DNA from: a virus | Reading direction: 5' to 3' (one strand) | Length of the DNA: 27,331 nucleotides | IMG/VR virus record: IMGVR_UViG_3300031250_000121 | Coordinates: 1-27,331 of that record | Shown here: in pieces, positions 1,530 to 25,196 of the stretch | How positions within the stretch are numbered: the stretch's first letter is position 1 | How the letters are laid out: the number at the start of each line of letters is the position of its first letter | Translations under genes and position numbers: made by a program | The notes under the pieces: model-generated | The model's database searches: none | The model's input: only the letters and a program-made list of their open reading frames with translations | What the model was told of the DNA's origin: nothing

Positions 1530-1604
1530 TGGGTGCGGGGGACGGACTCGAACCGCCGACCTCCTGGTTATGAGCCAGGCGAGCTGCCGCTGCTCTACCC
1601 CGCA
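1530..1604 (-). tRNA. tRNA-Met (CAU), elongator-like, with encoded CCA
   Basis: The minus strand folds into a complete 75-base cloverleaf. The acceptor stem TGCGGGG/CCCCGCA has seven pairs. The D-stem is GAGC/GCTC with a seven-base loop. The anticodon stem CCTGG/CCAGG carries loop CTCATAA (anticodon CAT). There is a five-base variable loop. The T-arm is GGCGG-TTCGAGT-CCGTC with one G-T pair, followed by discriminator C and encoded CCA. Position 1-72 is a normal T-A pair, and the anticodon stem lacks the three consecutive G-C pairs of initiators, so this is not tRNA-fMet. Elongator Met is favoured; an Ile tRNA with modified C34 cannot be excluded. It lies seven bases after the upstream gene, inside the late operon and on its strand, so it must be cut out of the late transcript. 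Confidence 0.93.
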
Positions 1605-3214: not shown

Positions 3215-3718
3215 TCAGGCCGTCACGGGCACGGGGCCCAGGGCCTTGGAGGCGAGATATTCGGCCTCGGTGATGTTGGTCATGGCGAGCAACGCCCGCT
3301 CCTCGGCGTTGAGCGCCGTCTGCGTTCCGCCCGCAGGGTCCTTCTTGCTGGGGTCCGATGACGTGAACATGGACGGCGCGGAGGCGGCGAAGGTCTTGAA
3401 ACGCTCGAGTCCGCCCTCGGCGCGGCAGCTCGCGAGGTGATAGTCCTTCGAGGCCGGCGCGACCTTGCCGGCGGCGACGGCCTCGTCGACCAGGCGCACG
3501 ATCTCGGCTTCACGCGCGGCCTGCGCGGCTTGCGCGATCGACTGCTCGGCGTTCTGAGCGCGCGCTGCCACGGCGTCATAGTCGGCGCGCGGCACGTAGC
3601 GCGAGAGATCGGCGGAGTTCGTCGCCGATGTCGCGTTCATGCGGTCGATCGCGGCGAGAACCTCCGCGAGCGACGCATTCTCGGCGAGGCCGAGCTTCTT
3701 CAGCAGTTCCTTGTCCAT
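3215..3718 (-). CDS. Internal-start scaffold protein (Mu Z-like), in frame in protease
   Basis: An in-frame ATG at codon 170 of the protease gene (MDKELLKKLGL) has an AAGGA ribosome site seven bases upstream, better than that of the full-length gene. It would give a 167-residue helical protein equal to the scaffold domain. In Mu, scaffold gpZ is made from an internal start within gene I, and the layout here is the same. Production of the short form is inferred. Confidence 0.68.
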   Translation of the reverse strand: MDKELLKKLGLAENASLAEVLAAIDRMNATSATNSADLSRYVPRADYDAVAARAQNAEQSIAQAAQAAREAEIVRLVDEAVAAGKVAPASKDYHLASCRAEGGLERFKTFAASAPSMFTSSDPSKKDPAGGTQTALNAEERALLAMTNITEAEYLASKALGPVPVTA

Positions 3719-4225
3719 CGAGGAGTCCTTCTGTCTGGAGTTGAGCGCGACCATCCCGAGGTTCGGGCGGTTCACGAGGCCCGCCCCGGCGAGCGAGACG
3801 ATCACGCCGCTGGCGCGGTCGAAGAGGAAGGTCGGAGAGAGGAAGCGATATTCACGCGTCTCGATCGCGGCTTTCGCCTTGTCGGTCCAGGAGACACGGC
3901 CCCAGGTCTCGCCGTCGCGGGTCTCGATGGCCTCGATCCATCCGGCGGCGGGCGCCGGATGGCCCTGCGGCGCGAGGCGATCCTGGCCATGTTCCCAGTC
4001 GATCGCGAGCGGACCGCCATGGGCGTTGAACGCGGAGACGAGCGCGCCGACGTCGGGGAGCCGCCATTTGCGGCCATCCCGGCCTATGATGTCCGGGCCC
4101 TTGGGCAGCAGCTGAACCCACTCCGGCGCGCCGCCTTCGGAGGCGAGCGCCAGAGCCTCGCCCTCGAGGGCGAGAGAGGCGTCATCACAGAGCGCGATGG
4201 AAAGGCTTGCGTCGGGGCTGATCAT
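3215..4225 (-). CDS. Prohead protease with C-terminal scaffold (Mu gpI/Z-like)
   Basis: 336 residues. The N-terminal half (about 1-165) is the Mu gpI protease: GAPEWVQLLPKGP near residue 32, LAIDWEHGQD near 75 and the conserved VSLAGAGLVNRPNLG near 145-160. The C-terminal half (170-336) is Ala/Glu-rich and helical (scaffold), with RYVPRADYDAV and a terminal LNAEERALLAMTNITEAEYL segment typical of this family. The protein cleaves prohead components and itself during capsid maturation. The gene begins the second late block, 37 bases downstream of a palindromic operator. No clear ribosome site precedes the ATG, which coincides with the transcription start predicted from the operator position, so translation may be leaderless. 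Confidence 0.92.
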   Translation of the reverse strand: MISPDASLSIALCDDASLALEGEALALASEGGAPEWVQLLPKGPDIIGRDGRKWRLPDVGALVSAFNAHGGPLAIDWEHGQDRLAPQGHPAPAAGWIEAIETRDGETWGRVSWTDKAKAAIETREYRFLSPTFLFDRASGVIVSLAGAGLVNRPNLGMVALNSRQKDSSMDKELLKKLGLAENASLAEVLAAIDRMNATSATNSADLSRYVPRADYDAVAARAQNAEQSIAQAAQAAREAEIVRLVDEAVAAGKVAPASKDYHLASCRAEGGLERFKTFAASAPSMFTSSDPSKKDPAGGTQTALNAEERALLAMTNITEAEYLASKALGPVPVTA

Positions 4226-4441
4226 GCGGGCACTATGCCCTGCGCCGCTCTGCTGGCAGCCGGAGACAGTTGTCTCCCTTGCGCCCCGATCTCCCCTTCG
4301 AATGATAATTGTATCGGCGCCGCCCGCGAGATGCGGGCGTTGAAAGGCTATTTTAAGCCGTGGGCGCGTTATTCCGATTTGCAGGGACGATGGCGGCCGA
4401 TAGGGGCTCGGGGCGCTCCACGGGCCGTTTCTGCGGCTCGC
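4226..4441 (-). other. Non-coding gap between two late gene blocks
   Basis: The gap of 216 bases separates the gpF-like gene from the protease gene. It holds the late operator (4262-4277), a 7-bp hairpin CGCCCGC/GCGGGCG (4321-4339, loop GAGAT) with no U-run on the minus strand, and an AT-rich patch around 4302-4314. I see no gene in it. Confidence 0.7.
4262..4277 (-). promoter_or_regulatory. Late-promoter operator 2 (upstream of protease)
   Basis: GGAGACAGTTGTCTCC is a dyad with 7-bp arms (GGAGACA/TGTCTCC). The same 16 bases with one centre change occur upstream of the endolysin gene at 12311-12326, and GCC precedes both. A TAG-containing hexamer starts about 26 bases downstream, which puts the dyad centre near -44, the position where Mu-type Mor/C activators bind. 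It would be the counterpart of Mu PI. The binding protein is inferred to be the Mor-like product of 12370-12771. Confidence 0.72.
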
Positions 4442-5605
4442 CTATTCCTCGCTCTCGAGCCCGTCGAGATAGACCGCGGCGCCGTCCCGCTCCACGCGCA
4501 TCGTCAGGCGTCGCCACAGCCCGCCGATCTTCGCCTCGACGCTCCGCGCCAGCGCCTTGCCGCGATCGAGGATCGTCTGCGCCAGCCCATAGGCCTCCGG
4601 CGTCGCGCCGATGCGCGCTGCGTCACGCACGGAGAGGCGCAGCGTGTGCGAGCCGGCGCCGGCGGCCTGCGCCTTATCGGCGGGGATCGAGGCGAATGGC
4701 AGCGATATGTCGCCGCGCGCGATCATGTCGGGATCGGTCGATGTCGGATCGAAATTCACGCCGCTGCTGGCGATGTGCCGAAACAGCGAAGAGCCGGCGA
4801 GATCGGCCGATGCGATGCGCCGCGTCGTCTCGTCCATCGCGTCCAGCTTGCCGGCGATGAAATCGGCCGCATTGCGCATGCGGAACTTGCCGGGGTTGTT
4901 GTTCCAGCCGGGGTCGATCCCGTTCGGCACGCGCGTGACCTCGCCCGTGCGCTTGTTGACGAAGACGGAAAAGCCGAAATCCTCCGGCCGATCGCCGAAG
5001 CGCGGACGGCCCTTCGCCTCCTCTTCGGAGAGCTGTCGCACGCGGCACTGGCAGAGCCAGCCATTGGGCGGATAGTGATCGTCCCACCAGATATCTTCGA
5101 CCTCGAGGATGGTCCCCACCCAGGTGAGATGCTCCTCGCGCTTATGCAGCGCGGTCGAGATCAGATATTCGAGATAGGGCAGCACGCGGCGCGTGCGCCA
5201 CGTGCGCTCCCATTCGCCGGCGGCATAGGCCGTATTCACATTTGCCCAATAGATCGTCTGTAGCCGGCGGACCGAGCCGAGCTGCACTTCGACGGGCTTG
5301 CCGGTGAGCGGGTCGAGCTGCTGCGCGTTGCCCCACCAGCCCTTGGCCTTCAACAGCGGTTCGAGGCCCTTTTTAAAATCGTCGAAATCCTGGCGGCCCT
5401 CGATCGCCTTCTGCAGCGCGCCATGGATATCGGCGAGGACGTCATAGCCGGCGCTCTTCGCCACGGTGAAGGCGTGCGCATGCTCGTCGAGCATGACGTC
5501 TTGCCAATGGAAGGACGGCTTCAGCGCCTTCTGGTCGAAGTAGCGAGTGACCTCGTTCGGCGGCTTCTTGAACGCCTCGGGCGCGAATGGGTCAGCGTCC
5601 GCCAT
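4442..5605 (-). CDS. Head morphogenesis protein (Mu gpF-like, SPP1 gp7 family) with C-terminal extension
   Basis: 387 residues. The N-terminal domain (about 1-235) is the Mu F / SPP1 gp7 minor head protein. It shows PPNEVTRYFDQKALKPSFHW near the start, YWANVNTAYAAGEWERTW at about 129-146, and the family signature R.EH..W.G......D.WW....PPNGWLCQCRVR near 158-192, with two Cys. A separate region (about 300-387) contains TLRLSVRDAARIGATPEAYG, LDRGKAL and a final WRRLTMRVERDGAAVYLDGLE. This resembles the phage Barnase-EndoU-ColicinE5/RelE-like (PBECR) nuclease modules often attached to such proteins. The core call is firm and the nuclease call tentative. It overlaps the portal gene by 14 bases. 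Confidence 0.9.
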   Translation of the reverse strand: MADADPFAPEAFKKPPNEVTRYFDQKALKPSFHWQDVMLDEHAHAFTVAKSAGYDVLADIHGALQKAIEGRQDFDDFKKGLEPLLKAKGWWGNAQQLDPLTGKPVEVQLGSVRRLQTIYWANVNTAYAAGEWERTWRTRRVLPYLEYLISTALHKREEHLTWVGTILEVEDIWWDDHYPPNGWLCQCRVRQLSEEEAKGRPRFGDRPEDFGFSVFVNKRTGEVTRVPNGIDPGWNNNPGKFRMRNAADFIAGKLDAMDETTRRIASADLAGSSLFRHIASSGVNFDPTSTDPDMIARGDISLPFASIPADKAQAAGAGSHTLRLSVRDAARIGATPEAYGLAQTILDRGKALARSVEAKIGGLWRRLTMRVERDGAAVYLDGLESEE

Positions 5606-7304
5606 TGGCGTTCCCCAGGCCGCGCGCCTTCATCTGCGCAATGGCGAGGCGATGAGCCAGCGCATCCGTGTCGAGATCGCCGGCGAGCTCGGCGAGGCGC
5701 TGCTTGAACTCCTCGAAGCTGGAGGAGGCCTCGGCCGCCTCGAGGATGGAGGCGACGATCGGCTCCATCTGCGGCTCCCAATCGGCGGCCTCCTCGGCGC
5801 CGATCGCGTCGACCTGGTCGACGCCGTCGCCGGCGGCGTTGAGCGCGACCTCCTCGGCCGTGAAGCTCTTGCCGCAGCCGCAAGGGCATTTGTAGAGCGC
5901 CGGCCGCTGGCTGTTCACCGCCTCGCGCAGCGCCTGCTTGGTGACCGGATCGGCCTTCTTCTCCGGCGCGGCCGTCTTCGGGGCTTCCAACAGCTCGTCG
6001 TCCTTATCAGGCTCCGACAGGCCGAGCTTGTCACGCACCTCGGCCTGTTTGACCTTGAGGCCGAGAGGCACCAGCGTGCCGAGCGCCGTCGAGAGGACGG
6101 CTATGTCCTCCGGCTCGGCGATCGGGAACTTCACCCAGGGCGTCTTGGCGTTGTCGCCGAAATTCACCTGGACGAAGGGCGCGATCAAATGGCGGTTGAG
6201 CGTGACGGCGAGCTGTCGCGCGTCTGCCTTCAGCAGGTCCAGCCGCACCTGATTGTGGACCTTGGCCTGGGCGAGCGAGCCGCCATTCTCGACCGTCATC
6301 GTCTGGCCGAGGATCATCTTCGACATTTGCTCGTCGAGGAATCGGGCGAGCCCTTCGAAAGGTGTCGTGCCGCTGCTGCTGCCCTTCGCTTGCAGGAACT
6401 CGATCATCATGGATTCGGGAATGATCGCCGCCGCGTCTGACGCGATGCTCATCACCGCCTGCAGCAGCTTGCGGCGCTCATCGCCCGTCGCGCTCGGATG
6501 ATATTTTCCGACGCGGATCGGCATGCCGTAGACGTCGAGGAATGACGCCCAATCTTTCAGGCTGAAAGACTTGAACAAGAAGGCCCAGGCGGCGAAGCGT
6601 GCGAAACCGCCGCGGATCGGAATGCCGCTCTTCTGGCGCGGCTTATGGACGATGTATTTGAACGGTTGCAGCTCGAGGCCGTCGATCGTGCCCAGCTCCT
6701 GCAGCCGCACCTCGCTGCGCGAGATATGGTCGAAGGTGAAATATTTCTGATCGCGCCAGAGATAGGCGAATGGCCACCACTTCCCGTCGCGCTCGGTCCA
6801 GAGGATTTCGACGACGGAATAGCCCTTGCCGAGGCCGTCCATCAGATCCTCGACCAGGTCGGGGAGCGTCGGCTCGTCGAGCAGCTCCTCGACGCCCTCG
6901 ACGATCTTCTTGTCGACGCCTTGCGCCTTCTCCTCGTCGATCGCCAGCTCGATGGAGGAGAGCGCGCGCTTTCTGGTGCCGAGCACGGAGAAATAATGCG
7001 CGTCCCGCTCCTCCATCTCCTCGGCGAGTTCGAGATAGAGCCGATGATCGCCGCGCACGGCGCCGCGCAGGATCGTCGCCAGCCGCTCCGGCGTGAGGCC
7101 GGAGGCGATGGATTGATCCCATAGCGTGCGCACGCCGATCAACTCCGGCCGCGCCTCCTCCTCCGAGAGCTTGCGCCGCTCGGAGGGCGCGAGCGAATGA
7201 CGGATCGGCTCGCCATCCGGCCCGAGCAGGCGCGTCGGGCCATGCATGCCGATGCGATCCTGCTCCGCCTCCAGCGCCTGGCGCGCGGTGAAATCGTCGA
7301 CCAT
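5592..7304 (-). CDS. Portal protein (DUF935, Mu gp29-like)
   Basis: 570 residues, forming the dodecameric DNA gate at the capsid vertex. DUF935 features include GPDGEPIRHSLAPS near the N-terminus, YSVVEILWTERDGKWWP, KPRQKSGIPIRGGFAR and SFSLKDWASFLDVYGMPIRVGKYHP. A FLDEQMSKMILGQTMTVEN stretch follows about two-thirds along. The C-terminal 120 residues add a CPCGCGKSF cluster, possibly metal binding, and a helical acidic tail. The ATG at 7304 shares its A with the terminase TGA. A TTG at 7307 is better spaced from AGGAAGG and could be the true start, adding one residue. Confidence 0.93.
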   Translation of the reverse strand: MVDDFTARQALEAEQDRIGMHGPTRLLGPDGEPIRHSLAPSERRKLSEEEARPELIGVRTLWDQSIASGLTPERLATILRGAVRGDHRLYLELAEEMEERDAHYFSVLGTRKRALSSIELAIDEEKAQGVDKKIVEGVEELLDEPTLPDLVEDLMDGLGKGYSVVEILWTERDGKWWPFAYLWRDQKYFTFDHISRSEVRLQELGTIDGLELQPFKYIVHKPRQKSGIPIRGGFARFAAWAFLFKSFSLKDWASFLDVYGMPIRVGKYHPSATGDERRKLLQAVMSIASDAAAIIPESMMIEFLQAKGSSSGTTPFEGLARFLDEQMSKMILGQTMTVENGGSLAQAKVHNQVRLDLLKADARQLAVTLNRHLIAPFVQVNFGDNAKTPWVKFPIAEPEDIAVLSTALGTLVPLGLKVKQAEVRDKLGLSEPDKDDELLEAPKTAAPEKKADPVTKQALREAVNSQRPALYKCPCGCGKSFTAEEVALNAAGDGVDQVDAIGAEEAADWEPQMEPIVASILEAAEASSSFEEFKQRLAELAGDLDTDALAHRLAIAQMKARGLGNANGGR

Positions 7305-8938
7305 CAATAGAGCCCTTCCTGCGGGAGCTTCATGTCCGCGGCGTCGGCGGTATCCTCGCCGCGGTTCGACTCGCGTAGCGTGCGGGCGCTCTCATAGTCG
7401 TAGAGCGCGACCAGCGCCCGCGTCGCCGCATAGGCGAGCATCAGCGCGACGGCCGCGTCTCCGTGGCGGTTCTTCTGCTCGCCGGATTTGAGCGCGGGAA
7501 TGAAGGGCACGCCGCCTTTCGTCTTCACCAGCCGCAGATCCGAGTGGATCTCCGAATCCGCCGGAATCTCGATCGCGTCATCCTCGAAGGCGGTTTTCAC
7601 GGGCTGGGCGTTGTCGCGATACCAGGGAATGTTGAGCGCGACCGCCTCGGTGCGCTCCAGCCCATATTGCTGGACCGCGTATTCCGCGATCGACATGCCG
7701 AGGCCGGTCGCGTCGTGCTTGGAGGCCGAAAAACGCGGCAGGCGGTCGCAGATATATTTGAGCACCTGCTTTTGCTGATCGAACGGAATGCGCCGCATCT
7801 CGACGACGAAGGGCGTGATGCGCCGCGTGGTGCGCGAGATGGCGAGCGGCCAGAGCACGGAGAGATCGCGCACGCGCCCATAGTCGCCGCCGAGGAAATG
7901 GCCGAGGTGCGAGTCGAGCGTGCGGAGGATCGGCAGCAGCTCGCGCTCGCACCAGTCGTTTATGTCGGCCTCGCGCAGATGCGCCGGCCAATAGGTGAAG
8001 CTCTCGGGCCGCTCGAGGCGCAGCACGGGAATGCCCTGGCGCGAGCGCGCTTCGATCAGCGGAGCCAGTAACCAAGCGCCGCCGCCCTCGGAGGGAATGC
8101 AGAACAGCTCCTCGTCGGCCGCCTCGCCGTAGAAGGCGACAATGTCGGAGCGCCACTTCGCCTCTTTCTCGACGCTCCACTCCTCGCCCTTGACGAGGCA
8201 GACGCGCTCATAAAGGCCTTGCTTCAGTGCGTCGTCGAAGTCGATGCGCAAAAGCGCATAGGGCTTGCGGCCGCCGCGAATGTCGAGGATCAGCCGATTA
8301 TAGGGATTGTCCGTGCCGTTGTGGGTCGAGATGATCAGGACCTTGCCGCCCCAGATCAGCAGAGCGAGCGCCGCCTGCAGCACGGCGTCGAGATCGTCGT
8401 GGAAGGCCGCCTCGTCGATGATCACATAGCCCTGACGGCCGCGCAGCGAACGCGGGCGGGAGGCGAGCGCGACGATCTCGAATCCGGAGGCGAAACGGAT
8501 TCGGAACGCCTGGATGAATTTGTCCGGCTCGCTCTCGAACAGGAAGTCCTCGACGCCGGCGACGGTGACCGCCTTGACGAAGGAGCGCGCCCACATGGCG
8601 CAAGTGTCGATGAACTCGCGCGCCATATCGAGATTGTAGCCGATATAGAGCGTATCCATGCCGCCGGCCGACTTCTCGGCGGCGGACGTTAGCACGGCGT
8701 CCGCGCCGGCCGCCCAGGTCACCCCCGTGCGGCGGCTCTTCTCGACGACGGTGACGGCGTTTGTCGCCGTGGTGGCGAGCAGCTGCGACTGATAGGGGAG
8801 GAGCACAGCCGGCATGCCGCCGGCTGTCTCCAGCTTCTCGGGTGCCAGCGCCAGGCTGTCCAGGCGATGGCGCTTCCACTCCGCCTCGGTGATGAGGCGG
8901 GCGGACTGGATTTCTTCATAGGACGGGAGCACGGTCAT
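7304..8938 (-). CDS. Terminase large subunit (Mu gp28-like)
   Basis: 544 residues; the ATPase/nuclease motor that packages phage DNA. An adapted Walker A (EKSRRTGVTW, about 66-75), Walker B (YVIIDEA, 171-177) and a coupling motif (IISTHNGTDNPYN, 202-214) define the ATPase. The nuclease half has acidic FLGGDYGRVRDLSV, KHDATGLG and a late HGDAAVAL, consistent with an RNase H-like fold. Length and order (small terminase, then large, then portal) agree with Mu-like phages. The start overlaps the methyltransferase stop by four bases. Packaging is expected to be headful from integrated copies with flanking host DNA. Confidence 0.93.
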   Translation of the reverse strand: MTVLPSYEEIQSARLITEAEWKRHRLDSLALAPEKLETAGGMPAVLLPYQSQLLATTATNAVTVVEKSRRTGVTWAAGADAVLTSAAEKSAGGMDTLYIGYNLDMAREFIDTCAMWARSFVKAVTVAGVEDFLFESEPDKFIQAFRIRFASGFEIVALASRPRSLRGRQGYVIIDEAAFHDDLDAVLQAALALLIWGGKVLIISTHNGTDNPYNRLILDIRGGRKPYALLRIDFDDALKQGLYERVCLVKGEEWSVEKEAKWRSDIVAFYGEAADEELFCIPSEGGGAWLLAPLIEARSRQGIPVLRLERPESFTYWPAHLREADINDWCERELLPILRTLDSHLGHFLGGDYGRVRDLSVLWPLAISRTTRRITPFVVEMRRIPFDQQKQVLKYICDRLPRFSASKHDATGLGMSIAEYAVQQYGLERTEAVALNIPWYRDNAQPVKTAFEDDAIEIPADSEIHSDLRLVKTKGGVPFIPALKSGEQKNRHGDAAVALMLAYAATRALVALYDYESARTLRESNRGEDTADAADMKLPQEGLY

Positions 8939-9513
8939 TCCGCGGCCTCATCGAACTTGGTGGCCTCGTCGCCCCAATTGCTCCAGCCGGGCCGCGTCTG
9001 CCGCGAGAAGAGATCGAGCTTGCGCACGCCGGGAAACATGCGCTCGCACTTCTGGTAGATTTCCTCGGGCTTGCGCGAGTGCTCGCGCAGCGGCGCCTCG
9101 ATCAGATTGCGTTCACTGTGCGAGACGATCTTCGGCTCGCCGATGGCGCCCCAGAGATAGGCCTCCGCCGCCGAGCGCTCCCAATAGCCGAGACCGAACG
9201 CCCATTTCGCGCCCGTGGCGCTGCGCTTGCCCCAGACGCCGTAGGATTTGTAGGCGAAGCCCCAATGCAGCATGAGATCGAGCTGCATGGGCAGCAACGG
9301 CCCTGTCGTCCAGAGGCACATTGCGCAATTGGGCGCCGCGAGCCTCCAGACCGGGAGCGCGTAGAGCTGCTCGCGGGTCATGGTGCGATAGTGGCGGCTC
9401 GCGCTCTTGGCCTGCCCCTTGTCGCTGCGCGTGGCGTAGCTCCACGCCGGATCGGCGAGGATCAGCCCGAAGCTCGACGGCTCCAGATTGCCGAAGGGCC
9501 AGTCCTCGCTCAC
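8935..9513 (-). CDS. MT-A70 family adenine methyltransferase
   Basis: 192 residues. The MT-A70 (Ime4-type) fold is recognised by the catalytic LILADPAWSY motif at about 17-26, HYRTMTREQLYALPVW, CAMCLWTTGPLLP, and the later REHSRKPEEIYQ and KLDLFSRQTRPGWSNWG motifs. It would transfer a methyl group from SAM to the N6 of adenine in DNA, perhaps protecting packaged DNA from host restriction. The usual DPPW is DPAW here, a change that may be normal in phage members of the family. It sits between the two terminase genes with four-base overlaps on both sides, so it is made together with the packaging machinery. Confidence 0.9.
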   Translation of the reverse strand: MSEDWPFGNLEPSSFGLILADPAWSYATRSDKGQAKSASRHYRTMTREQLYALPVWRLAAPNCAMCLWTTGPLLPMQLDLMLHWGFAYKSYGVWGKRSATGAKWAFGLGYWERSAAEAYLWGAIGEPKIVSHSERNLIEAPLREHSRKPEEIYQKCERMFPGVRKLDLFSRQTRPGWSNWGDEATKFDEAAE

Positions 9514-10076
9514 GCCTCCCTCCGCACGCCGAGGATCTCTGCGCGCAGCGTGGCGACGGTCTCCTCGGTGAGGCCCTTGGCCTTGCCGACCTTGGCGACG
9601 GCCTCGCTGGCCTTCTTCTCGAAATCGGCGACGAGCTTCGTGCGCCGCTCGGCCGAGAGCTTCTGGCCCTGGATGGTGGCGAGATAAGCGCGCGCCATCT
9701 CCATGCTGTTCTTCGGCGTCAGCGCGCCGGGCTCGTCGTCGAGCAGCTCGGCGATCAGCATCTTGATCAGCTCGCCGAGCACGATATTCGACTCGTCGAC
9801 GCGGTCCGGCGTGAACTGCGGGGCGATCCCCTCGAACAATGCACGTCCCTCGGCGATCCTGCGCGCGGCGTTCGCGAGGCGCATCGAGCGGCGATTGAAG
9901 GCGCTTTTGGAGATGAGCTCCAAGCCCTTGTCCGCGAGCCGGCCGTTGAGGTCGGACAAAATCTCCGCCTGCGTCCGCTGGCGCCTGTTCAGCTCGGCCA
10001 TCGCCCAGGCGATATCTTCCTGCGCTTCTTCGGGCAGCGTGTCGATCGAGGAGAGACGGCCGCGTCCCGTCGCCAT
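9510..10076 (-). CDS. DUF3486 protein (Mu gp27-like, probable small terminase)
   Basis: 188 residues. DUF3486 proteins occupy the small-terminase position in Mu-like phages. Visible are the N-terminal RGRLSSIDTLPEEAQEDIAW (typical GR.S.ID.LP), an HTH-like segment around RTQAEILSDLNGRLADKGLE followed by SKSAFNRRSMRL, and a long helical C-terminus ending in the family-typical LRAEILGV. It probably recognises the phage end and brings DNA to the large subunit. There is a one-base gap from the upstream gene and a four-base overlap with the methyltransferase. Confidence 0.88.
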   Translation of the reverse strand: MATGRGRLSSIDTLPEEAQEDIAWAMAELNRRQRTQAEILSDLNGRLADKGLELISKSAFNRRSMRLANAARRIAEGRALFEGIAPQFTPDRVDESNIVLGELIKMLIAELLDDEPGALTPKNSMEMARAYLATIQGQKLSAERRTKLVADFEKKASEAVAKVGKAKGLTEETVATLRAEILGVRREA

Positions 10077-10077
10077 G

Positions 10078-10371
10078 TCAGTGCGCCGGCCGAGCGACGC
10101 CGCTGATGACGATCCGGCCGCTCAAATGGTCCAGCCCCTTCTGCGTGAGCATGGCGATCAGCACGGAGGCATGTTCCTGGAGCGCGACCGCGCCCATTTC
10201 GGCGAGCCAGCGCAACTCGTCGTTCACCCACTCTCTCGGCTTGTTGATCGCGGACCGCAGCTCGAGGTCCTCCCGCAGCTGGACGCTATTCCAGCGCTGA
10301 TCCGGCTGTTCGGATATTCCGCGCAGAATGGCGAGGCGCGCATACTGGCGCTGGACTTCGATCGCGCTCAT
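10078..10371 (-). CDS. VpaChn25_0724-family phage protein
   Basis: 97 residues with a winged-helix-like layout: an N-terminal helix (RQYARLAILRGISEQPD), a middle helix pair (SVQLREDLELRSAINKPREWVNDELRWLAEMG) and a C-terminal LTQKGLDHLSGR....GV.RP ending. This is the pattern of the VpaChn25_0724 family seen just upstream of DUF3486 in Mu-like phages. Its role is unknown; a DNA-binding part in packaging or late expression is possible. Overlaps neighbours by four bases upstream. Confidence 0.8.
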   Translation of the reverse strand: MSAIEVQRQYARLAILRGISEQPDQRWNSVQLREDLELRSAINKPREWVNDELRWLAEMGAVALQEHASVLIAMLTQKGLDHLSGRIVISGVARPAH

Positions 10372-10730
10372 CTCGCCGCCGCCTCCGCCTGGATCGCGCG
10401 ATCCTCCGCCCGCTCATACTGAGAGACGAGCGTGTCCAGCTTGTAGAGGACCGAGTCGAATTTCGCATCGAGCTTGGTGATTTGCGTGTGCAACTGGTGG
10501 AACTCATCCTTCGTCGGCAGATGTTCCACCTCCACTTCGATCTTGCCGAGCCGAACCTCGACGCCGTCGACGCGCTCGAACAGGCGTCGGAGATCGGATT
10601 GCGCGCCGTGGACGTCACGCTCGACGCCTTCGAGCGCCTTGTCGCTCTTCTTCGAGAACGCCGCCCAGACCCCGAGAGAGATCGCCGTCGCCGTCCCCGC
10701 CCATTGCGCCGCCGTGCCCCAATCCATCAC
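10368..10730 (-). CDS. DUF2730-like membrane-anchored coiled-coil protein
   Basis: 120 residues. An N-terminal segment (about 7-26, WGTAAQWAGTATAISLGVWA) can span the membrane. The rest is a long charged coiled coil (residues 30-115) with heptad-like spacing of V/L/I. This fits DUF2730, a Mu-like phage family lying between the lysis genes and the terminase genes. Start GTG at 10730 overlaps the upstream stop (GTGA); the ATG at 10727 is the alternative. The function is not known. Confidence 0.72.
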   Translation of the reverse strand: MMDWGTAAQWAGTATAISLGVWAAFSKKSDKALEGVERDVHGAQSDLRRLFERVDGVEVRLGKIEVEVEHLPTKDEFHQLHTQITKLDAKFDSVLYKLDTLVSQYERAEDRAIQAEAAAR

Positions 10731-10837
10731 CAGAACCTTCCTTCAAAGAGATATGAGGCCAGCACGATCAGCGCCGGCGACGCGCCGATGACGACGGCGA
10801 CGACGACGCCGATCGCATCGCGGGTCTCCGGCTTCAT
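10727..10837 (-). CDS. 36-residue single-span membrane protein
   Basis: A very short gene with one hydrophobic span (residues about 10-29, IGVVVAVVIGASPALIVLAS) between a charged N-terminus (MKPETRD) and a short aromatic tail. Reality is supported by four-base overlaps with both neighbours in an otherwise gapless operon. Its place next to the lysis genes makes a holin or antiholin accessory possible, but nothing in the sequence proves this. Confidence 0.6.
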   Translation of the reverse strand: MKPETRDAIGVVVAVVIGASPALIVLASYLFEGRFW

Positions 10838-11094
10838 CGCTTGCCCCCGCAGGCGTCGCGCCAATTTTGATTGTTCGCGGCGACGGCGCGCACGAAGCGA
10901 GAGAAATCGACGCAGATCGGATCGGCCGATGTCTCGCCATGCGGGCATGTCTGCTTGATCCAGGCTTTCAGCGCCGGCGACGCCGGGGCCTCGACGATCC
11001 TGTCGCAGGTCTCGTCGATATAGACGGGACCGCCCATGGCGAGCGCTTCAGAGCTTATCGACAGCGTCGCCAAAATCGCCAGCGTCAGTCGCAC
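10834..11094 (-). CDS. Exported small Cys-containing protein, overlaps spanin-like gene
   Basis: 86 residues from a GTG preceded by AGGAGGT with a five-base spacing. Residues 1-19 are a signal peptide (LTLAILATLSISSEALA, cleavage after Ala). The mature part has four Cys (ETCDR, QTCPHG, PICVDF, DACGG), which could form two disulfides in the periplasm. The first 47 bases overlap the upstream spanin-like gene in another frame, an arrangement reminiscent of Rz/Rz1. There is no lipobox, however, so it is not a standard Rz1 lipoprotein. A lysis or superinfection role is inference. Confidence 0.75.
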   Translation of the reverse strand: MRLTLAILATLSISSEALAMGGPVYIDETCDRIVEAPASPALKAWIKQTCPHGETSADPICVDFSRFVRAVAANNQNWRDACGGKR

Positions 11095-11278
11095 GTCGCA
11101 CCTCCTCGGCCTTGCGCGCGTCGGCCAGCTGCTTGCGCGCGGCCTCGGCGTTCTGCTTCTCCTCGGCCGCGCGCTGCGCGTCCGCTCCTCCACGCCTCAC
11201 CGCGCCGATCACGGCGAGGCCGAGGCTGACGGCCACGATCGCCCCAGCGGCGATCGCGGCCCAGGCGTAGGGCGACAA
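11048..11278 (-). CDS. Small membrane-anchored coiled-coil protein, i-spanin-like
   Basis: 76 residues. A single N-terminal membrane span (about 4-26, AWAAIAAGAIVAVSLGLAVIG) is followed by RR and a charged Ala/Glu/Lys coiled coil, the layout of Rz-type inner-membrane spanins. It is shorter than lambda Rz. The start is TTG at 11278, five bases after the holin stop. Spanins link inner and outer membranes in the last step of Gram-negative lysis. The call rests on topology and on its place directly after holin. Confidence 0.65.
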   Translation of the reverse strand: MSPYAWAAIAAGAIVAVSLGLAVIGAVRRGGADAQRAAEEKQNAEAARKQLADARKAEEVRRATDAGDFGDAVDKL

Positions 11279-11282
11279 GGCC

Positions 11283-11759
11283 CTACGCCGCCTTTGTGGA
11301 GCCGATCGCCTTGGAGGCTTTGATGCGCCCCCAAATGGCGACGAGGCCGCCGAGGAGCGATCCCGCGCCGGCGACGAGGCCGCCGATCTGCGTGACGCCG
11401 TCGACGAGCGCGGCCTGATCGGCCGGCGTCACCGCATAGCCAGCGAGCTGTGCTGCGCCGGCGACGGCGGCGACGGCGCCGCCCAAAATGCCGCGCGAGA
11501 GATACCAGGGCTTTGTTTCATCCATGACGCTTTGCTCCATCACTGCCAGTAGGCCCGGCGCGGGTTGCTTCGCGACCGGGTATTCACGTTTCAAGTCCTG
11601 CAATAGGCCGATCCCGTAGTAGATGATCACGGCGAGCAGGATGAGGATTCCCAGCGCGATGATGCGCCGGTCCGGATGCGGGACGGCGAGGTGAAACAGC
11701 CACGCCGCGAACAGGCCGACGACGATCGTGCGAAATAGGACCGCGATGAGCTGCCCCAT
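11283..11759 (-). CDS. Holin-like membrane protein
   Basis: 158 residues with four probable membrane spans: about 4-24 (IAVLFRTIVVGLFAAWLFHL), 33-52 (IIALGILILLAVIIYYGIGL), 90-108 and 121-143. The C-terminal part (KPWYLSRGILGGAVAAVAG, then a TPADQAALVDGVTQIGGLVAG stretch and WGRIKA) closely follows a common phage holin pattern. It appears joined to an extra two-span N-terminal part. It would form the timed membrane lesion that releases endolysin. Located directly after endolysin, with two bases between them. Confidence 0.8.
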   Translation of the reverse strand: MGQLIAVLFRTIVVGLFAAWLFHLAVPHPDRRIIALGILILLAVIIYYGIGLLQDLKREYPVAKQPAPGLLAVMEQSVMDETKPWYLSRGILGGAVAAVAGAAQLAGYAVTPADQAALVDGVTQIGGLVAGAGSLLGGLVAIWGRIKASKAIGSTKAA

Positions 11760-11761
11760 GG

Positions 11762-12253
11762 TCAGGACTCCTTCGCGCCGGAGACCGCGGCCGTCTTCAC
11801 GCCCGCGGCGCTCGCCGTGGGGATTGCGACGCCCATCGGCCAGCGGAAGGCGACGATCTGCGCGCGCGGAATGCCTTCAATGCAGACGCGATCGTTCTGA
11901 TTGCCGCCGAGCGCATAGACGGTCTTGGCGTCGAAGCCGGCGATGAAGAAGACATGGCCGCCGCCCGTGCGCTTCTTGACGCCGATCGCGCCGACGAGCG
12001 GCTTTTTCAGCGCCTGGCCGTATTTGGCGTAGTCCAGCGCCCAAAGCGTGCCGCTGTTGGGCAGGCCGGCCTCATGCAGCACGGCGCCGACGAAAGCCGC
12101 GCACCAGGGCGTGCGGTGATCGTTCTTCACCTCGCCGTGGCCGGACTCCAGGAAGAACTTCAAGACGGTCGGATTGGCTTTGAGGTCCGTTCCCTCGTGG
12201 ACGCCCATGTAGGAATGGGCGATCTTCATCCAGGGAAGATCGGTCGCGGTCAT
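11762..12253 (-). CDS. Endolysin, CHAP-like (TIGR02594 family)
   Basis: 163 residues. A CHAP/NlpC-type cysteine peptidase or amidase: the catalytic Cys51 is in DHRTPWCAAFVGAVL, the His100 in TGGGHVFFIAG, and a polar residue follows in LGGNQND (about 116-121). This is the TIGR02594 pattern common in phages. It would cut peptidoglycan at the end of infection. There is no signal peptide, so release depends on the holin. First gene of the late region, 58 bases downstream of a palindromic operator, with a GAGGGGG ribosome site before the ATG. Confidence 0.9.
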   Translation of the reverse strand: MTATDLPWMKIAHSYMGVHEGTDLKANPTVLKFFLESGHGEVKNDHRTPWCAAFVGAVLHEAGLPNSGTLWALDYAKYGQALKKPLVGAIGVKKRTGGGHVFFIAGFDAKTVYALGGNQNDRVCIEGIPRAQIVAFRWPMGVAIPTASAAGVKTAAVSGAKES

Positions 12254-12369
12254 TGTCGCCCCCTCGTTCGGAATGATCCGAAGCTAGGGCCCGCGCCGTC
12301 CCGAAATGCCGGAGACAGCTGTCTCCGAGGGAGAGATTCCGTTCGCCGGACTATGACGCGCGGCGCGCG
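12254..12369 (-). promoter_or_regulatory. Late promoter region (Plys-like)
   Basis: This 116-base gap separates the Mor-like activator gene from endolysin. It holds the perfect operator palindrome (12311-12326), a TAGCTT -10 candidate starting 24 bases downstream of it (12282-12287) and no -35 match, as expected for an activator-dependent promoter. A TTCGGA/TCCGAA hairpin (12267-12282) overlaps the expected transcription start near 12274. Confidence 0.68.
12311..12326 (-). promoter_or_regulatory. Late-promoter operator 1 (upstream of endolysin)
   Basis: GGAGACAGCTGTCTCC is a perfect 16-bp palindrome. It is repeated with one base change at 4262-4277 upstream of the protease gene. It lies directly downstream of the activator gene and 58 bases from the endolysin ATG. 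The inferred ligand is the Mor/C-like dimer. Confidence 0.78.
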
Positions 12370-19100: not shown

Positions 19101-19506
19101 TCGCGCCTCCCTTGATCCGCGAGTGCGCGCAGCCGGCGCGGCAGGCGTGGAAGAGCGCCGTGCGCGTCGCCGATGTGCCGATGTGCTTCATCTTCTGCTC
19201 GGCGAGGCAGCGGTCGCGGCCGATCTCGCCGAGCACTGGGCATTCGACGATCGCGCCCATGAAGGCGCCGCGCACCTTCGCCTCCACCTTGCCCCAGTCG
19301 CCCTTGTAGTTGCCGCGGCAGATGGAGGAGACGACGGCAGTGGAATAGTCGATGCGCCTGGCGACAGCCGTCGCGGTCGAGCGATTGGCCTCCTGCGCCA
19401 GCGTCTCGATCCAATCGGGCAGAGCGTCGCCGAAAGCCTCGCGCGCATTCTCCAGGAAGTCGACGTCCTTGCGAGACGAAATATTAAGGTTAACGGCGGC
19501 GGTCAT
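19093..19506 (-). CDS. HTH protein with C-terminal Cys cluster, Mu-like early gene
   Basis: 137 residues. The middle (about 25-70, DALPDWIETLAQEANRSTAT, VARRIDYSTAVVSSICRGNY, then KGDW) is a helix-turn-helix of the kind that reads 'S....S..L.G.Y.GD'. The C-terminus holds ECPVLGEIGRDRCLAEQ and a further ACRAGCAHSR, four Cys with nearby His that could bind zinc. This combination recurs in Mu-like phages of Proteobacteria just after gene B. It may regulate early transcription; no target is known. Four-base overlap upstream (ATGA). Confidence 0.75.
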   Translation of the reverse strand: MTAAVNLNISSRKDVDFLENAREAFGDALPDWIETLAQEANRSTATAVARRIDYSTAVVSSICRGNYKGDWGKVEAKVRGAFMGAIVECPVLGEIGRDRCLAEQKMKHIGTSATRTALFHACRAGCAHSRIKGGANV

Positions 19507-20989: not shown

Positions 20990-23134
20990 CTAACGCAACG
21001 CCGCCTCTCCGAAATCCTGATAGAGCTCACGCATGGCTCGATATTCGGGGCCTGTCTGATAGGCGCCGAGCCACATCGCGTCCTCGGTCGAAATCCTCTC
21101 GTTGTTGTCGATCCTCGCCTCCAGCTCGAGCGCGCGGCGGAAACGCTGCTGCTTGGTCTCGGGCAGCTGCGTGACGCGTGGCGACGGCGCCATGGGCGCG
21201 ACGCTCGCCAAATCCTGCTCGATCTCGGTGAGCGTCGCGCGCTGCTCTTGCGTCTGCGGCGCGGGCGCGGGCTGCTCGATCGCCGCTCGGGCGGCTTCCA
21301 GTGCGGGCGTTGTGTGTGTCTCCGAGGGGCGCGGGAACTCGACCAGCTTGCCGGCCTCGAGGGCCTTCTTGCGCACGACAACATCGACGAAATAGCGGCT
21401 GTGAAACTGCTTCATATCGGCGCGCAAGATGTCGCCGCCTTCCTTCATGTGGCGCTCACGCGCGGCGCGCGCTTCGGCGACAGCGGCTGCAGGATCGACG
21501 CCCGCCAGTTCTGGGCAAATCGCCTCGCCGACATATTCGGCGCCGTCTGCCGAGAACAGCCAGGCGTGGCCCATGTCCTCCGGGTCCATGCGCACGAAGA
21601 CGCGCGTCTCTGGGTCCACAGTGGGCGTGAGGTAATAGGAGCCGTCGACGCGCACGCCCTTCTTAGTGACGACGCGAATTCCATCGCCGCCGGCAGCCGG
21701 CGCCAGCAGCAGATCGAGCGCGCGGACGTCGTCTATGCGCTTCACCGCCCCCGCGAAGCTCGCGGCCATCTGGAACGGCGTGGCGCCGCCGATGCCGGAG
21801 TGCGGACGCTGCGCATAGCGGCCTGCGAACCAATCGTCGCAATAGCTCTGCAGCTCCTTAGAGGTCAGCTCGACGCAGAAGGCGCCCGCGTCATCCTGGC
21901 CGAGACGCGCCGAGAAGGCTCTACGCTCCTCGATCACCTTGCGGTCCTTGACGCTGTGGCCGATGAAGCCCGGCAACAGCGGGCAGAGATCGCGCTGGAA
22001 TGTGCCGACGGCGCGCTCGATATGGCCCTTCTGTTCAGGAGAGAAGGGCGCGGACAGCTCGACCTCGATCTCCAGCGCCTTGAACAGGCGTTGCGTCGAT
22101 TTCGCGGTGAAGTCGGAGCCATTGTCCGTCTTCACGCGCTCCGGCACGCCCCAAGCAAGAATGGCGCGGCGCATCAGCAGCGCGACGGCCTCGGCGCGTG
22201 GCGTGCGGCTCACATAGACGATGAGGCGACGCGAGAAAATGTCGACGCAGAGATAGACGGAATGACGGCCGTCGACGCAGAGCGCGTCGGCCGGCGAGGC
22301 GTCGATCATCCACAGCTCGTTCAACCTATCGACGGCGTGCGAATTCGTGCCGGAGAGGCGATATTTGCTCTTATAGGCGTCCGGATTGGTGATCTTGGTG
22401 AGGAGAACCTTGTCCTCATCCTCGATCCGCGCGCGCATGCGCTGCACCGTGCGCAGCGAGACCCCCACATCGGGGAACTTGTCCTCGATCAATTTGAGTA
22501 GATGATCGGCCGAAAGATGCGGCTGCTTGGCTATCGCGGCGGTGAGGAACGCGCGCACCTGACCCTCTCCGCCGCGATTCAACGCGCCTCTACCCCTACG
22601 CGCGGCGCCGCGATCGACGCCGAGCCCTGAAATTCCTTGGACGCGCTTGGTCGAGCGCCAGCGGGCCAGCGTGCGCTGCGACAGCTTCGGCACGGCGGCG
22701 CGCACGCCGGGCTCCACCTCTATGCGGCCGAGATTGTAGAGCGCCGCGAATGTGCGATCGGCCATGTTGCGCGAGAGCGTCGCGTTCCGCGCATAGAGAT
22801 CGGCGGCGGCGATGAGCGTGAGGCGCGCGTCGCGATTGTCGAGCGCGATGAGCGTGAGCCGCTTCTTGGCCTCCTCGATAGACGCAGCGGCGGCGTCCTC
22901 CGGCGCGAGGGCGACATCGCCGATGGCGCGCGCCGCATAGGCCGCGAGCGCCGCCGCCGGCAGCAGGTCGATCGAATATTCGAGGCCTCCGCCCCGGCCC
23001 TTGCGCAGACGGACCTTATCCGTGCGCTCGAGCCAGCCCTCGCGCTCGGCGTAGTCACGCCAGCCGCGCTCTGTCTCCGGCAAGCCGGGCAGAGAAAGGG
23101 CCGCGAGTTCGGGAGCGGAAAGCCAGTCGCGCAT
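20990..23134 (-). CDS. muA: Mu-type DDE transposase (MuA-like)
   Basis: 714 residues from MRDWLSAPELAALSLPGLPE. The N-terminal Mu-type DNA-binding domain occupies about 1-75 (WLSAPELA..SLPGLP....W..YA). A helical site-binding part (Ibeta/gamma-like) runs to about 245. The RNase H-like catalytic core has D278 (LWMIDAS), D337 (KTDNGSDF) and E373 (KGHIERAVGTF), followed by a beta-barrel and a C-terminal tail for B contact. It cuts and joins phage ends for integration and replicative transposition. The ATG shares one base with the ParB-like stop; an upstream in-frame extension lies inside the preceding gene. Confidence 0.95.
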   Translation of the reverse strand: MRDWLSAPELAALSLPGLPETERGWRDYAEREGWLERTDKVRLRKGRGGGLEYSIDLLPAAALAAYAARAIGDVALAPEDAAAASIEEAKKRLTLIALDNRDARLTLIAAADLYARNATLSRNMADRTFAALYNLGRIEVEPGVRAAVPKLSQRTLARWRSTKRVQGISGLGVDRGAARRGRGALNRGGEGQVRAFLTAAIAKQPHLSADHLLKLIEDKFPDVGVSLRTVQRMRARIEDEDKVLLTKITNPDAYKSKYRLSGTNSHAVDRLNELWMIDASPADALCVDGRHSVYLCVDIFSRRLIVYVSRTPRAEAVALLMRRAILAWGVPERVKTDNGSDFTAKSTQRLFKALEIEVELSAPFSPEQKGHIERAVGTFQRDLCPLLPGFIGHSVKDRKVIEERRAFSARLGQDDAGAFCVELTSKELQSYCDDWFAGRYAQRPHSGIGGATPFQMAASFAGAVKRIDDVRALDLLLAPAAGGDGIRVVTKKGVRVDGSYYLTPTVDPETRVFVRMDPEDMGHAWLFSADGAEYVGEAICPELAGVDPAAAVAEARAARERHMKEGGDILRADMKQFHSRYFVDVVVRKKALEAGKLVEFPRPSETHTTPALEAARAAIEQPAPAPQTQEQRATLTEIEQDLASVAPMAPSPRVTQLPETKQQRFRRALELEARIDNNERISTEDAMWLGAYQTGPEYRAMRELYQDFGEAALR

Positions 23135-23994
23135 CAGTCTGCCTGCGTTCCGGCGCGCTTCTTCGCCGACATCTCGGCGCCGATCATCTTCAGGAAGGCG
23201 ACCTTGGTGGGCTTGCTGGCCTTCTCCCAATTTTCGAGTAGAGCGGCGAGGATGCGCGCCTGTGGGTCGACGATCGTCGGCTTTGCGAGACCCGCGGCGA
23301 TCTTCGCCTGCACGACGCTCTTGGCCTCGCCGGATTTGATGTGTTGCGCGATATCGCGCTGCTGGCTATCGGGCAGCTCCGCGAGCTGGAACAGCTCGTT
23401 CTGGTTATTCTCGAGCGGCGTGCCGCGGATCGCGGCAATGGCGTCCTTGTCGAGCCGGCGGGCGAGCATGATCGCCTTCTGGATCGCGCTTTCGGAGTAG
23501 CCCGTGCGCTTGGCCGCGTCCTCGGTGAAGCGCTCGGAGAAATCCATTCGGAAAGATTCCGAACTGATCAGCTCCTTGAATTTCGTGCTCTTGCGGTCGC
23601 CGCCACGGCTATGCACGCGGCGCATTTCCTCATAGACGGATTTGCGCTCCAGCAGGAACAACGCGCGGTCGAGAGCGTTCAGCTCATTGCGTGCGATATT
23701 CTCGTCGATCTCAATGAGGCGCGCCTCCATCGCATCGACGTCGAGGACGCGCACATGCTGATCGACCGCCAGCTCTTTCCATCCGAGCAGTTGCACCGCT
23801 GCGGTCCGATGGCCTCCGACGATCAGCACGTAAGGCAAGCCCGGTCCGTCGTCTTCGGACCTCTTGCGAACGAGAACGGGCTGCGACAAGCCGCGCTGCT
23901 CGATGGAGGCTGCGATCAGCTCGGCTTCATGCGGATCGACGGGCCGCAGCCGCTTGCTGACGTCTATGTCTTCGATCCGAATTGTCTCTGTCAT
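23134..23994 (-). CDS. ParB/Spo0J-like nuclease-fold protein
   Basis: 286 residues. The ParB N-terminal domain is clear: VSKRLRPVDPHEAELIAASI at about 13-32, QPVLVRKR, the YVLIVGGHRTAAVQLLGW motif (55-72; GGHR in place of GERR) and IEIDENIARNELNALDRALF. The second half (about 130-230) has an HTH stretch (FTEDAAKRTGYSESAIQKAI). True ParA is absent, so a role in plasmid-style partition is unlikely. It may be a DNA-binding regulator or CTP-dependent clamp in transposition or host takeover. ParB-like genes are known in this position in some alphaproteobacterial Mu-like phages. Ribosome site GAGG six bases upstream. Confidence 0.88.
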   Translation of the reverse strand: MTETIRIEDIDVSKRLRPVDPHEAELIAASIEQRGLSQPVLVRKRSEDDGPGLPYVLIVGGHRTAAVQLLGWKELAVDQHVRVLDVDAMEARLIEIDENIARNELNALDRALFLLERKSVYEEMRRVHSRGGDRKSTKFKELISSESFRMDFSERFTEDAAKRTGYSESAIQKAIMLARRLDKDAIAAIRGTPLENNQNELFQLAELPDSQQRDIAQHIKSGEAKSVVQAKIAAGLAKPTIVDPQARILAALLENWEKASKPTKVAFLKMIGAEMSAKKRAGTQAD

Positions 23995-24470: not shown

Positions 24471-25196
24471 GTGAAAAAGGCAGTGGACCCGCGATTGGTC
24501 GAATTCGGCGAGCGCATCACGGCGCTGACCGATCCGTTAGGAAGCATCGCAAAGGCGTCTAAGGAGCTGAAAATTCCGGCAAATACTCTGAGCCGCCTTC
24601 GGCGAGGAGAGAATGAGCCGACGCCCGGCGTCCTGTTGGCGCTCGCGGACGGGCTGCACGTCTCGATGGACTATCTGCTCGGCCTATCCGACGAGCCGCT
24701 GGCTCTCCCACCCAAGGTTGGTCGGCCGCAGGCCGATCCGCTCGCCTTTGAACGCGTACCAAGGTTGGACGTCCGGGCGGCTGCAGGAGCCGGCTCGATC
24801 AACCACATGTTCGCGATCGACGGCGAGCTGCCTTTCCCGCATTGGATGCTGCAGAAGCTCGCTCCTCCAGGTGCAAAGCTCTCGTTTCTCCGCGCCAAGG
24901 GCGACAGCATGGAGCCGACCATCGTCGACGGCGCGCTGCTGCTCGTTGCCGACAGCAATGGCGATCTACGCGTCCCGGATCGACCTCCGAAGCCGAAGAA
25001 CAGGTCGGATGTCCAGGATATCTACGTGTTCCTGCAGGGCGACGATCTGCGCGTGAAGCGGCTTCGCAAGTCGAAGCAGGGCGCGATCTTCATCATGAGC
25101 GACAATCCGGCCTATGAGCCGGAAGTGCTTTTGAAAGACGATTTGAAGCGGTTCAAACTCTGCGGCCGGGTGATATGGTGGGATAATCGGTTATGA
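24471..25196 (+). CDS. LexA/CI-like phage repressor (HTH + S24 peptidase)
   Basis: 241 residues. An N-terminal HTH (about 12-70: SIAKASKELKIPANTLSRLR followed by GE and VSMDYLLGLS) joins an S24 self-cleaving domain. Ser146 is in RAKGDSMEPT and Lys196 in LRVKRLRK. Probable cleavage is at Ala-Gly within VRAAAGAGS (101-109). RecA-stimulated autocleavage would make the prophage SOS-inducible, unlike the Mu c repressor. Read divergently from ner. It starts with GTG, and no convincing ribosome site is visible. Two more operator-like sites lie inside the gene. Its stop overlaps the next gene by four bases. Confidence 0.92.
   Translation: MKKAVDPRLVEFGERITALTDPLGSIAKASKELKIPANTLSRLRRGENEPTPGVLLALADGLHVSMDYLLGLSDEPLALPPKVGRPQADPLAFERVPRLDVRAAAGAGSINHMFAIDGELPFPHWMLQKLAPPGAKLSFLRAKGDSMEPTIVDGALLLVADSNGDLRVPDRPPKPKNRSDVQDIYVFLQGDDLRVKRLRKSKQGAIFIMSDNPAYEPEVLLKDDLKRFKLCGRVIWWDNRL
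24711..24769 (+). promoter_or_regulatory. Two operator-like sites inside the repressor gene
   Basis: CCAAGGTTGGTCG (24712-24724) differs from the O2 stretch CCAATGTTGGTCG by one base, and ACCAAGGTTGGA (24758-24769) differs from O2 by two. They fall in different codon phases, so a protein repeat does not explain them. Spacing is about 47 bases. They may be auxiliary repressor sites or a transposition enhancer like the Mu internal activating sequence. Confidence 0.42.

Follow-up and report, generated by a model that had tools for sequence, protein, structure and literature searches.

A predicted one-step late switch in a Mu-like prophage, with matched dyads before the lysis and protease operons and a single Mor/C-type activator

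Bacteriophage Mu is the textbook case of a phage with activator-dependent late promoters, and it employs two sister activators in series. The dyad of the first activator, Mor, lies in the promoter Pm between -51 and -36, with its centre at -43.5 (PMC4287176), and Pm yields the second activator, C. Plys and PI are C-dependent late promoters (PMC4461284), and these two promoters, together with PP and Pmom, resemble the promoters described below in carrying a dyad upstream of a -10 element without a usable -35 element (PMC4461284; PMC4287176). The C-dependent system is also similar in that its sites precede the lysis and protease I genes, and in that one activator serves several late operons.

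Two named phages, Ochrobactrum phage POA1180 and Rhizobium phage RR1-B, possess activators of the same family as the one considered here, annotated 'late transcriptional activator', and share the layout in which a dyad precedes each late operon (three and four copies respectively), but they differ from the present case in the operator letters (CCTGACANTGTCAGG; CCGGAACCGRGTTCCGG). The paper on POA1180 mentions neither promoters, palindromes nor activators (PMC5492332), and a search of the open literature, with subscription journals outside its scope, found no paper on these operators.

The window, by which we mean the whole stretch of DNA that was analysed, is a 27.3-kb viral record (27,331 nucleotides) containing most of a Mu-like prophage, which probably resided in a methanotroph close to Methylosinus. 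Its early part comprises a repressor, a ParB-like protein, a DDE transposase, an ATPase and a packed early/middle operon, followed by a Mor/C-type activator; the late genes come after the activator, all on the minus strand, in the order endolysin, small genes, terminase, portal, F, protease and head genes (Table 1). A DNA methyltransferase gene (8935-9513, minus strand; phrog_359, E 2e-65) is located between the small and large terminase genes. The endolysin-type gene is the first of the lysis/packaging operon, and the protease gene is the first of the head operon; upstream of it a 216-nt gap adjoins the F-like gene, the last of the upstream late operon. The other main gap, of 116 nt, lies between the activator and endolysin genes, and the remaining junctions, with one exception, are shorter than 30 nt or overlap. 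The first-pass annotation of this DNA had described these as the only two large gaps of the late region, placed before endolysin and protease exactly as Plys and PI are in Mu. The two gaps and their Mu-like placement stand, but a third gap, of 155 nt, exists within the head operon, where it is filled by a tRNA gene with anticodon CAT (1530-1604, minus strand).

Table 1. Features of the window that bear on the predicted late switch
Feature	Position	Strand	Remarks
Mor/C-type late transcriptional activator, 133 aa	12370..12771	-	phrog_836 E 2e-27; HTH_23
Operator dyad of predicted lysis promoter (Plys equivalent)	12311..12326	-	GGAGACAGCTGTCTCC, perfect palindrome; predicted centre -44.5
-10-like hexamer TAGCTT	12281..12286	-	24 nt downstream of dyad; predicted +1 at 12274
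Endolysin-type gene	11762..12253	-	CHAP-like, below Pfam cut-off; phrog_9589 endolysin
Mu F-like minor head protein	4442..5605	-	Pfam Phage_Mu_F E 7e-10
Operator dyad of predicted protease (PI-equivalent) promoter	4262..4277	-	GGAGACAACTGTCTCC on minus strand; predicted centre -44.5
-10-like hexamer CATAGT	4232..4237	-	24 nt downstream of dyad; predicted +1 at 4225
Mu I-type head maturation protease	3215..4225	-	Pfam Mu-like_Pro E 1e-53; phrog_328 E 1e-78
Prophage repressor, S24-type	24471-25196		
ParB-like protein	23134-23994		

A pattern search that tolerated up to three mismatches finds GGAGACAGYTGTCTCC at only two places in the window, precisely those given by the first-pass annotation, one in each of the two gaps; the copy before the protease gene pairs at seven of its eight positions. 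Both copies are preceded on the plus strand by GCC, as had been noted, which in the direction of late transcription is a GGC downstream of the dyad. The same annotation had put a -10-like hexamer 24 to 26 bases beyond each dyad and the dyad centre near -44; on the minus strand the distance is identical at the two sites, the hexamers having A at -11 and T at -7. The promoter search detected no canonical sigma-70 promoter (a -35/-10 pair) at either dyad, and with starts placed by prediction both promoters have the layout of the Mor- and C-dependent promoters of Mu, namely a dyad near -43.5, a -10 element and no -35 element. The predicted lysis transcript would have a 21-nt leader containing a GAGGGGG ribosome-binding site, and the predicted start of the head operon coincides with the A of the protease ATG.

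The candidate activator matches PHROG 836 over its full length (residues 2-133 of 133 on profile positions 7-132 of 133), and Mor and C of Mu align with the C-terminal half of that profile; a profile comparison of the window protein with Mor and C gave 94.5%. Its score against the Pfam Mor model (PF08765) is 8.6 bits (E 0.04), below the cut-off of 24.9 bits, which the relatives in the L015 record and in RR1-B pass once neighbouring stretches are summed, and it appears to be a distant homologue of Mor that falls outside the membership certified by the Pfam model. In a sequence search of the PDB, Mu Mor (1rr7) came up at no better than E 0.08. For the AlphaFold model of the protein (mean pLDDT 73), Foldseek found nothing in the PDB at E 0.001 or better, and the matches from VIA-align were limited to common helix-turn-helix structures, among them chain 9l0x of Mu C (Z 3.9), so that the model seems to add little. 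The closest named activator, about 75% identical, is encoded on a contig of Methylosinus sp. Sm6, which is the basis for the probable host given above.

Each of 14 records (the window and 13 relatives) contains one strong match to phrog_836, and the same search finds two in Mu. Because there is a single match per record, and because no dyad stands upstream of mor in the window, the data argue against a Mor-then-C relay; no two-tier cascade was found, and the earlier proposal that a single Mor/C-type protein would act on all late genes is supported to that extent. An unrelated intermediate activator may also exist.

Relatives of the activator were gathered from viral contigs, bacterial genomes and named phages. 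The 5.4-Mb genome G208 encodes a Mor protein that is 73% identical to that of the window, within a syntenic prophage that is 85-94% identical to the window over long aligned stretches, and GGAGACARYTGTCTCC occurs exactly three times in this genome, always inside the prophage: 42 bp after mor, before the protease gene and upstream of a sheath-type gene. The check that had been proposed, a search for the 16-mer upstream of late gene blocks in related prophages, is thus borne out in G208, where all three exact copies stand at late operons. A looser pattern with a free centre matches at three more places in this genome, and these matches lack the centre-flanking letters common to the prophage copies. 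The window-type 16-mer was not found in the host genomes of three relatives, and a plasmid search with the dyad gave nothing relevant. The description of the two dyads as marking both late promoters holds for the two that are present but is probably incomplete, since in the closest intact relative a third copy stands ahead of the sheath gene, and the window does not include the tail sheath region.

Relatives that share the activator and lack the dyad at these gaps, which had been named as evidence that would count against the proposal, are not the general finding: more than 20 relatives have a pair of dyads in the two corresponding gaps, with letters that agree within a phage and vary between phages. 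The pairs include GGAGACAACCGTCTCC / GGAGACGCGCGTCTCC in L004, GCGGTCAGCTGTCCCC / GCGGACATGTGTCCCC in L003, AGAAAGTCTTCG / AGAAAATCTTCG in L010, GGTGACAACGTCACC / GGTGACAGTGTCACC in L042 and CCTGACACTGTCAGG / CCTGACAATGTCAGG in POA1180; the operator is CCGGAACCGAGTTCCGG in RR1-B and GAGACCGANNTCGGTCTC in L043, and GCTGACANNTGTCAGC or close forms of it are found in many relatives, among them L014, L022, L023, L034, L037 and L038. The misfits are L013 and L045, which have no clear dyad after mor, and L009, in which the motif after mor is degenerate. Three genomes retrieved after the hypothesis stood largely matched its prediction: G101 has three sites (lysis, protease and sheath), G038 has two sites, where the operator is a new one, CCGAACNNGTTCGG, and in G110 the sites for lysis and sheath are present but no exact copy precedes the protease gene.

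Complete or longer records show copies before the sheath gene. In POA1180 the third copy, at 19465, separates gp21 from the sheath gene gp22; further such copies belong to the records of L003, L014, L015, L021, L037, L038 and L042 and to the genomes G101 and G110. Four of the proteins encoded downstream of third sites were identified as sheath by PHROG 23. The third site of the L003 record has a different spacer, was missed by the first patterns and was found by reading upstream of the sheath gene, and no third site with the AGAAAATCT operator was detected in the searched part of the L010 record. L043 also has a third copy, again with an ATG about 44 nt away. The four copies in RR1-B follow the activator gene and precede the protease, tape measure and baseplate genes.

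The agreement of operators within phages was evaluated by a permutation of the within-phage matching, in which the observed value of 232 (permuted mean 126) was reached in 0 of 20,000 permutations, a result biased in favour of matching through the selection of some operators by eye. The operators concerned are those of the GGWCA and AGAAAATCT types, which were chosen from similarity within each record; the results based on patterns (the sheath-site searches, G208 and the genomes G101, G038 and G110) are free of this bias, and related phages do not in any case constitute independent observations. An automatic procedure that took the best near-palindrome pair of each record was rejected, as its scores were poor and dominated by GC-rich chance palindromes in coding sequence; it selected the right pair in several records.

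When the promoters are aligned on the dyad centre, an NANNNT hexamer is found at an offset of 31-33 in 17 of 21 protease promoters, 21 of 24 lysis promoters (a non-redundant set) and 6 of 7 sheath promoters, compared with roughly 1, 2 and 0.6 respectively expected from other offsets. The distance between the predicted -10 element and the dyad centre is thus fixed, at about 32 nt, across the relatives. In nearly all of them 44-46.5 nt separate the dyad centre from the protease ATG, the exceptions being L046 (100 nt) and L045 (56 nt). Because this spacing would put the transcription start within one or two bases of the ATG, a leaderless protease mRNA, beginning at or beside the A of the ATG, is predicted to be conserved in nearly all relatives.

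If the activator reads the dyad, the operator should shift with the recognition helix, and such a shift is seen, with exceptions. Helices with MR or IR accompany operators of the GAGACA class, ER accompanies CTGACA, RR accompanies GTGACA, SR accompanies GGWCA and QR accompanies AGAAAATCT. The residue before the conserved Arg is M or I in three of three GAGACA-type phages, R in all three GTGAC-type phages (L021, L042 and L045) and E in most CTGACA-type phages, the exceptions among the latter having Q, S or V (L017, L040, L044 and L015). A recognition code of the form "one residue, one base" was rejected, because the correspondence is only a trend.

Several other explanations of the dyads must be weighed against activation by the Mor/C-type protein. 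That the dyads are a chance repeat of a GC-rich palindrome has almost no probability once the relatives are considered, even though the pair by itself, within the window, is only modestly unusual and chance is not negligible there: 30 of 200 dinucleotide-preserving shuffles (15%) contain a near-palindromic 16-mer pair differing by at most one base. What makes the pair significant is where it stands, one copy in each gap, together with the comparison across phages; recurrence at orthologous positions in relatives, the location in both late gaps and the identical spacing refute a chance origin. Intrinsic terminators or RNA hairpins that separate operons, as opposed to DNA operators, would account for the position of the dyads between operons, and a stem of 6 bp with a 4-nt loop is possible. 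T-runs are indeed present in two relatives: RR1-B has four near-identical 17-bp dyads (L031 11533, 18997 and 26074, and record position 31111), of which three are followed by T-runs, as are some of the dyads of POA1180, and in these two phages the operators may double as terminators of the preceding operon. As a general explanation this is nonetheless very unlikely, since no terminator-like site (a GC stem with a T run) was detected at either dyad of the window, the AGAAAATCT class is unable to form a real hairpin, and a terminator does not need the fixed downstream distance of the -10 hexamer and the protease ATG.

The two remaining explanations assign the dyads to other DNA-binding proteins. 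Operators through which the prophage repressor or a host regulator silences the late genes are highly improbable: an S24-type repressor is present and palindromic operators would suit a dimeric repressor, but no copy of the dyad lies near the repressor gene or the early promoters of the window, the host genomes of three relatives lack the 16-mer, the exact copies in G208 are confined to its prophage and its late operons, and a position at -44.5 without a -35 element fits activation. Palindromes of 16 bp are also typical of parS, and a ParB-like gene is found in the window and in many relatives, so the dyads could in principle be parS-like sites for DNA organisation or regulation. Such sites would be expected only alongside a ParB gene, whereas the records L017, L021, L042 and L034 (possibly fragments) all have late-gene dyads and no ParB match; neither the fixed distance to the -10 element nor the shift of the operator with the Mor helix would be expected of them, and this explanation is extremely unlikely.

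The reading preferred here, and a very probable one, is a one-step switch in which the Mor/C-type activator turns on two or three late promoters by way of an operator particular to each phage. The sequences themselves show the dyads, how they are spaced, that they recur at the same genes in relatives, and that there is one activator gene; from this we infer protein binding, activation, start sites and timing, as follows. The activator, presumably produced from the early operon, would act at both dyads, most likely with one dimer on each 16-bp dyad, just upstream of and overlapping the -35 region, and would recruit or activate the host RNA polymerase at promoters with a -10 element but lacking a -35 element. 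The lysis/packaging operon and the head operon would then be transcribed from the starts predicted in Table 1, the latter as a leaderless mRNA, and a third dyad copy before the sheath gene is probably located in the part of the prophage outside the record, as in the closest relative. One activator would thus take the place of the Mor-then-C relay of Mu, and in related phages the operator letters would have changed jointly with the activator.

The predicted promoters are similar to Pm of Mu in their 16-bp dyad and in having a -10 but no -35 element, with the centre at -43.5 in Mu and at a predicted -44.5 here (PMC4287176), and the activators are distantly homologous. Pm yields C, whereas the equivalent protein here appears to act directly on the late operons. 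Compared with the C-dependent promoters, the present system differs in the third site before the sheath gene, in the apparent lack of a Mor-to-C relay and in a protease start that looks leaderless. The operator letters also look unlike those of the C site of Mu.

A broader reading is offered tentatively, as somewhat short of probable: among Mu-like phages, a widespread branch found mainly in Alphaproteobacteria may place all late genes under one activator, its recognition helix changing in concert with the operator, so that there are many activator-operator pairs, each distinct from the others, on a fixed promoter frame (centre about -44.5), with a leaderless head operon as a conserved rule (ATG as +1) and, in some members, a tRNA-CAT resembling initiator tRNA. 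On the preferred reading, a large group of Mu relatives probably manages with a single activator, and the two-step arrangement of Mu appears to be only one version of the switch. In these relatives nature also supplies a set of activators, each matched to its operator, while the rest of the promoter stays constant, and from this set the recognition rules of the Mor/C family could be read off and tested directly, with the named phages POA1180 and RR1-B as possible subjects, and the conserved spacing leads to the prediction of leaderless head-gene mRNA.

The tRNA in the head operon of the window resembles the initiator tRNA-fMet of E. coli in sequence. The L010 record (L061 2159-2235) and the G110 prophage (L083 14885-14961) carry similar tRNAs, and G208 has an altered copy; a tRNA search of the relatives found no such tRNA in POA1180, L014, L042 and several others, and because of this distribution the tRNA is not tied to the leaderless starts. 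In L056 (L016 record) an in-frame fusion links a sheath gene to tape-measure-like sequence, which looks like the outcome of a deletion between two tail genes during decay of the prophage. The Methylosinus sp. Sm6 contig (L024) ends inside the dyad directly after mor, and the genome of this strain contains two additional, distant activators.
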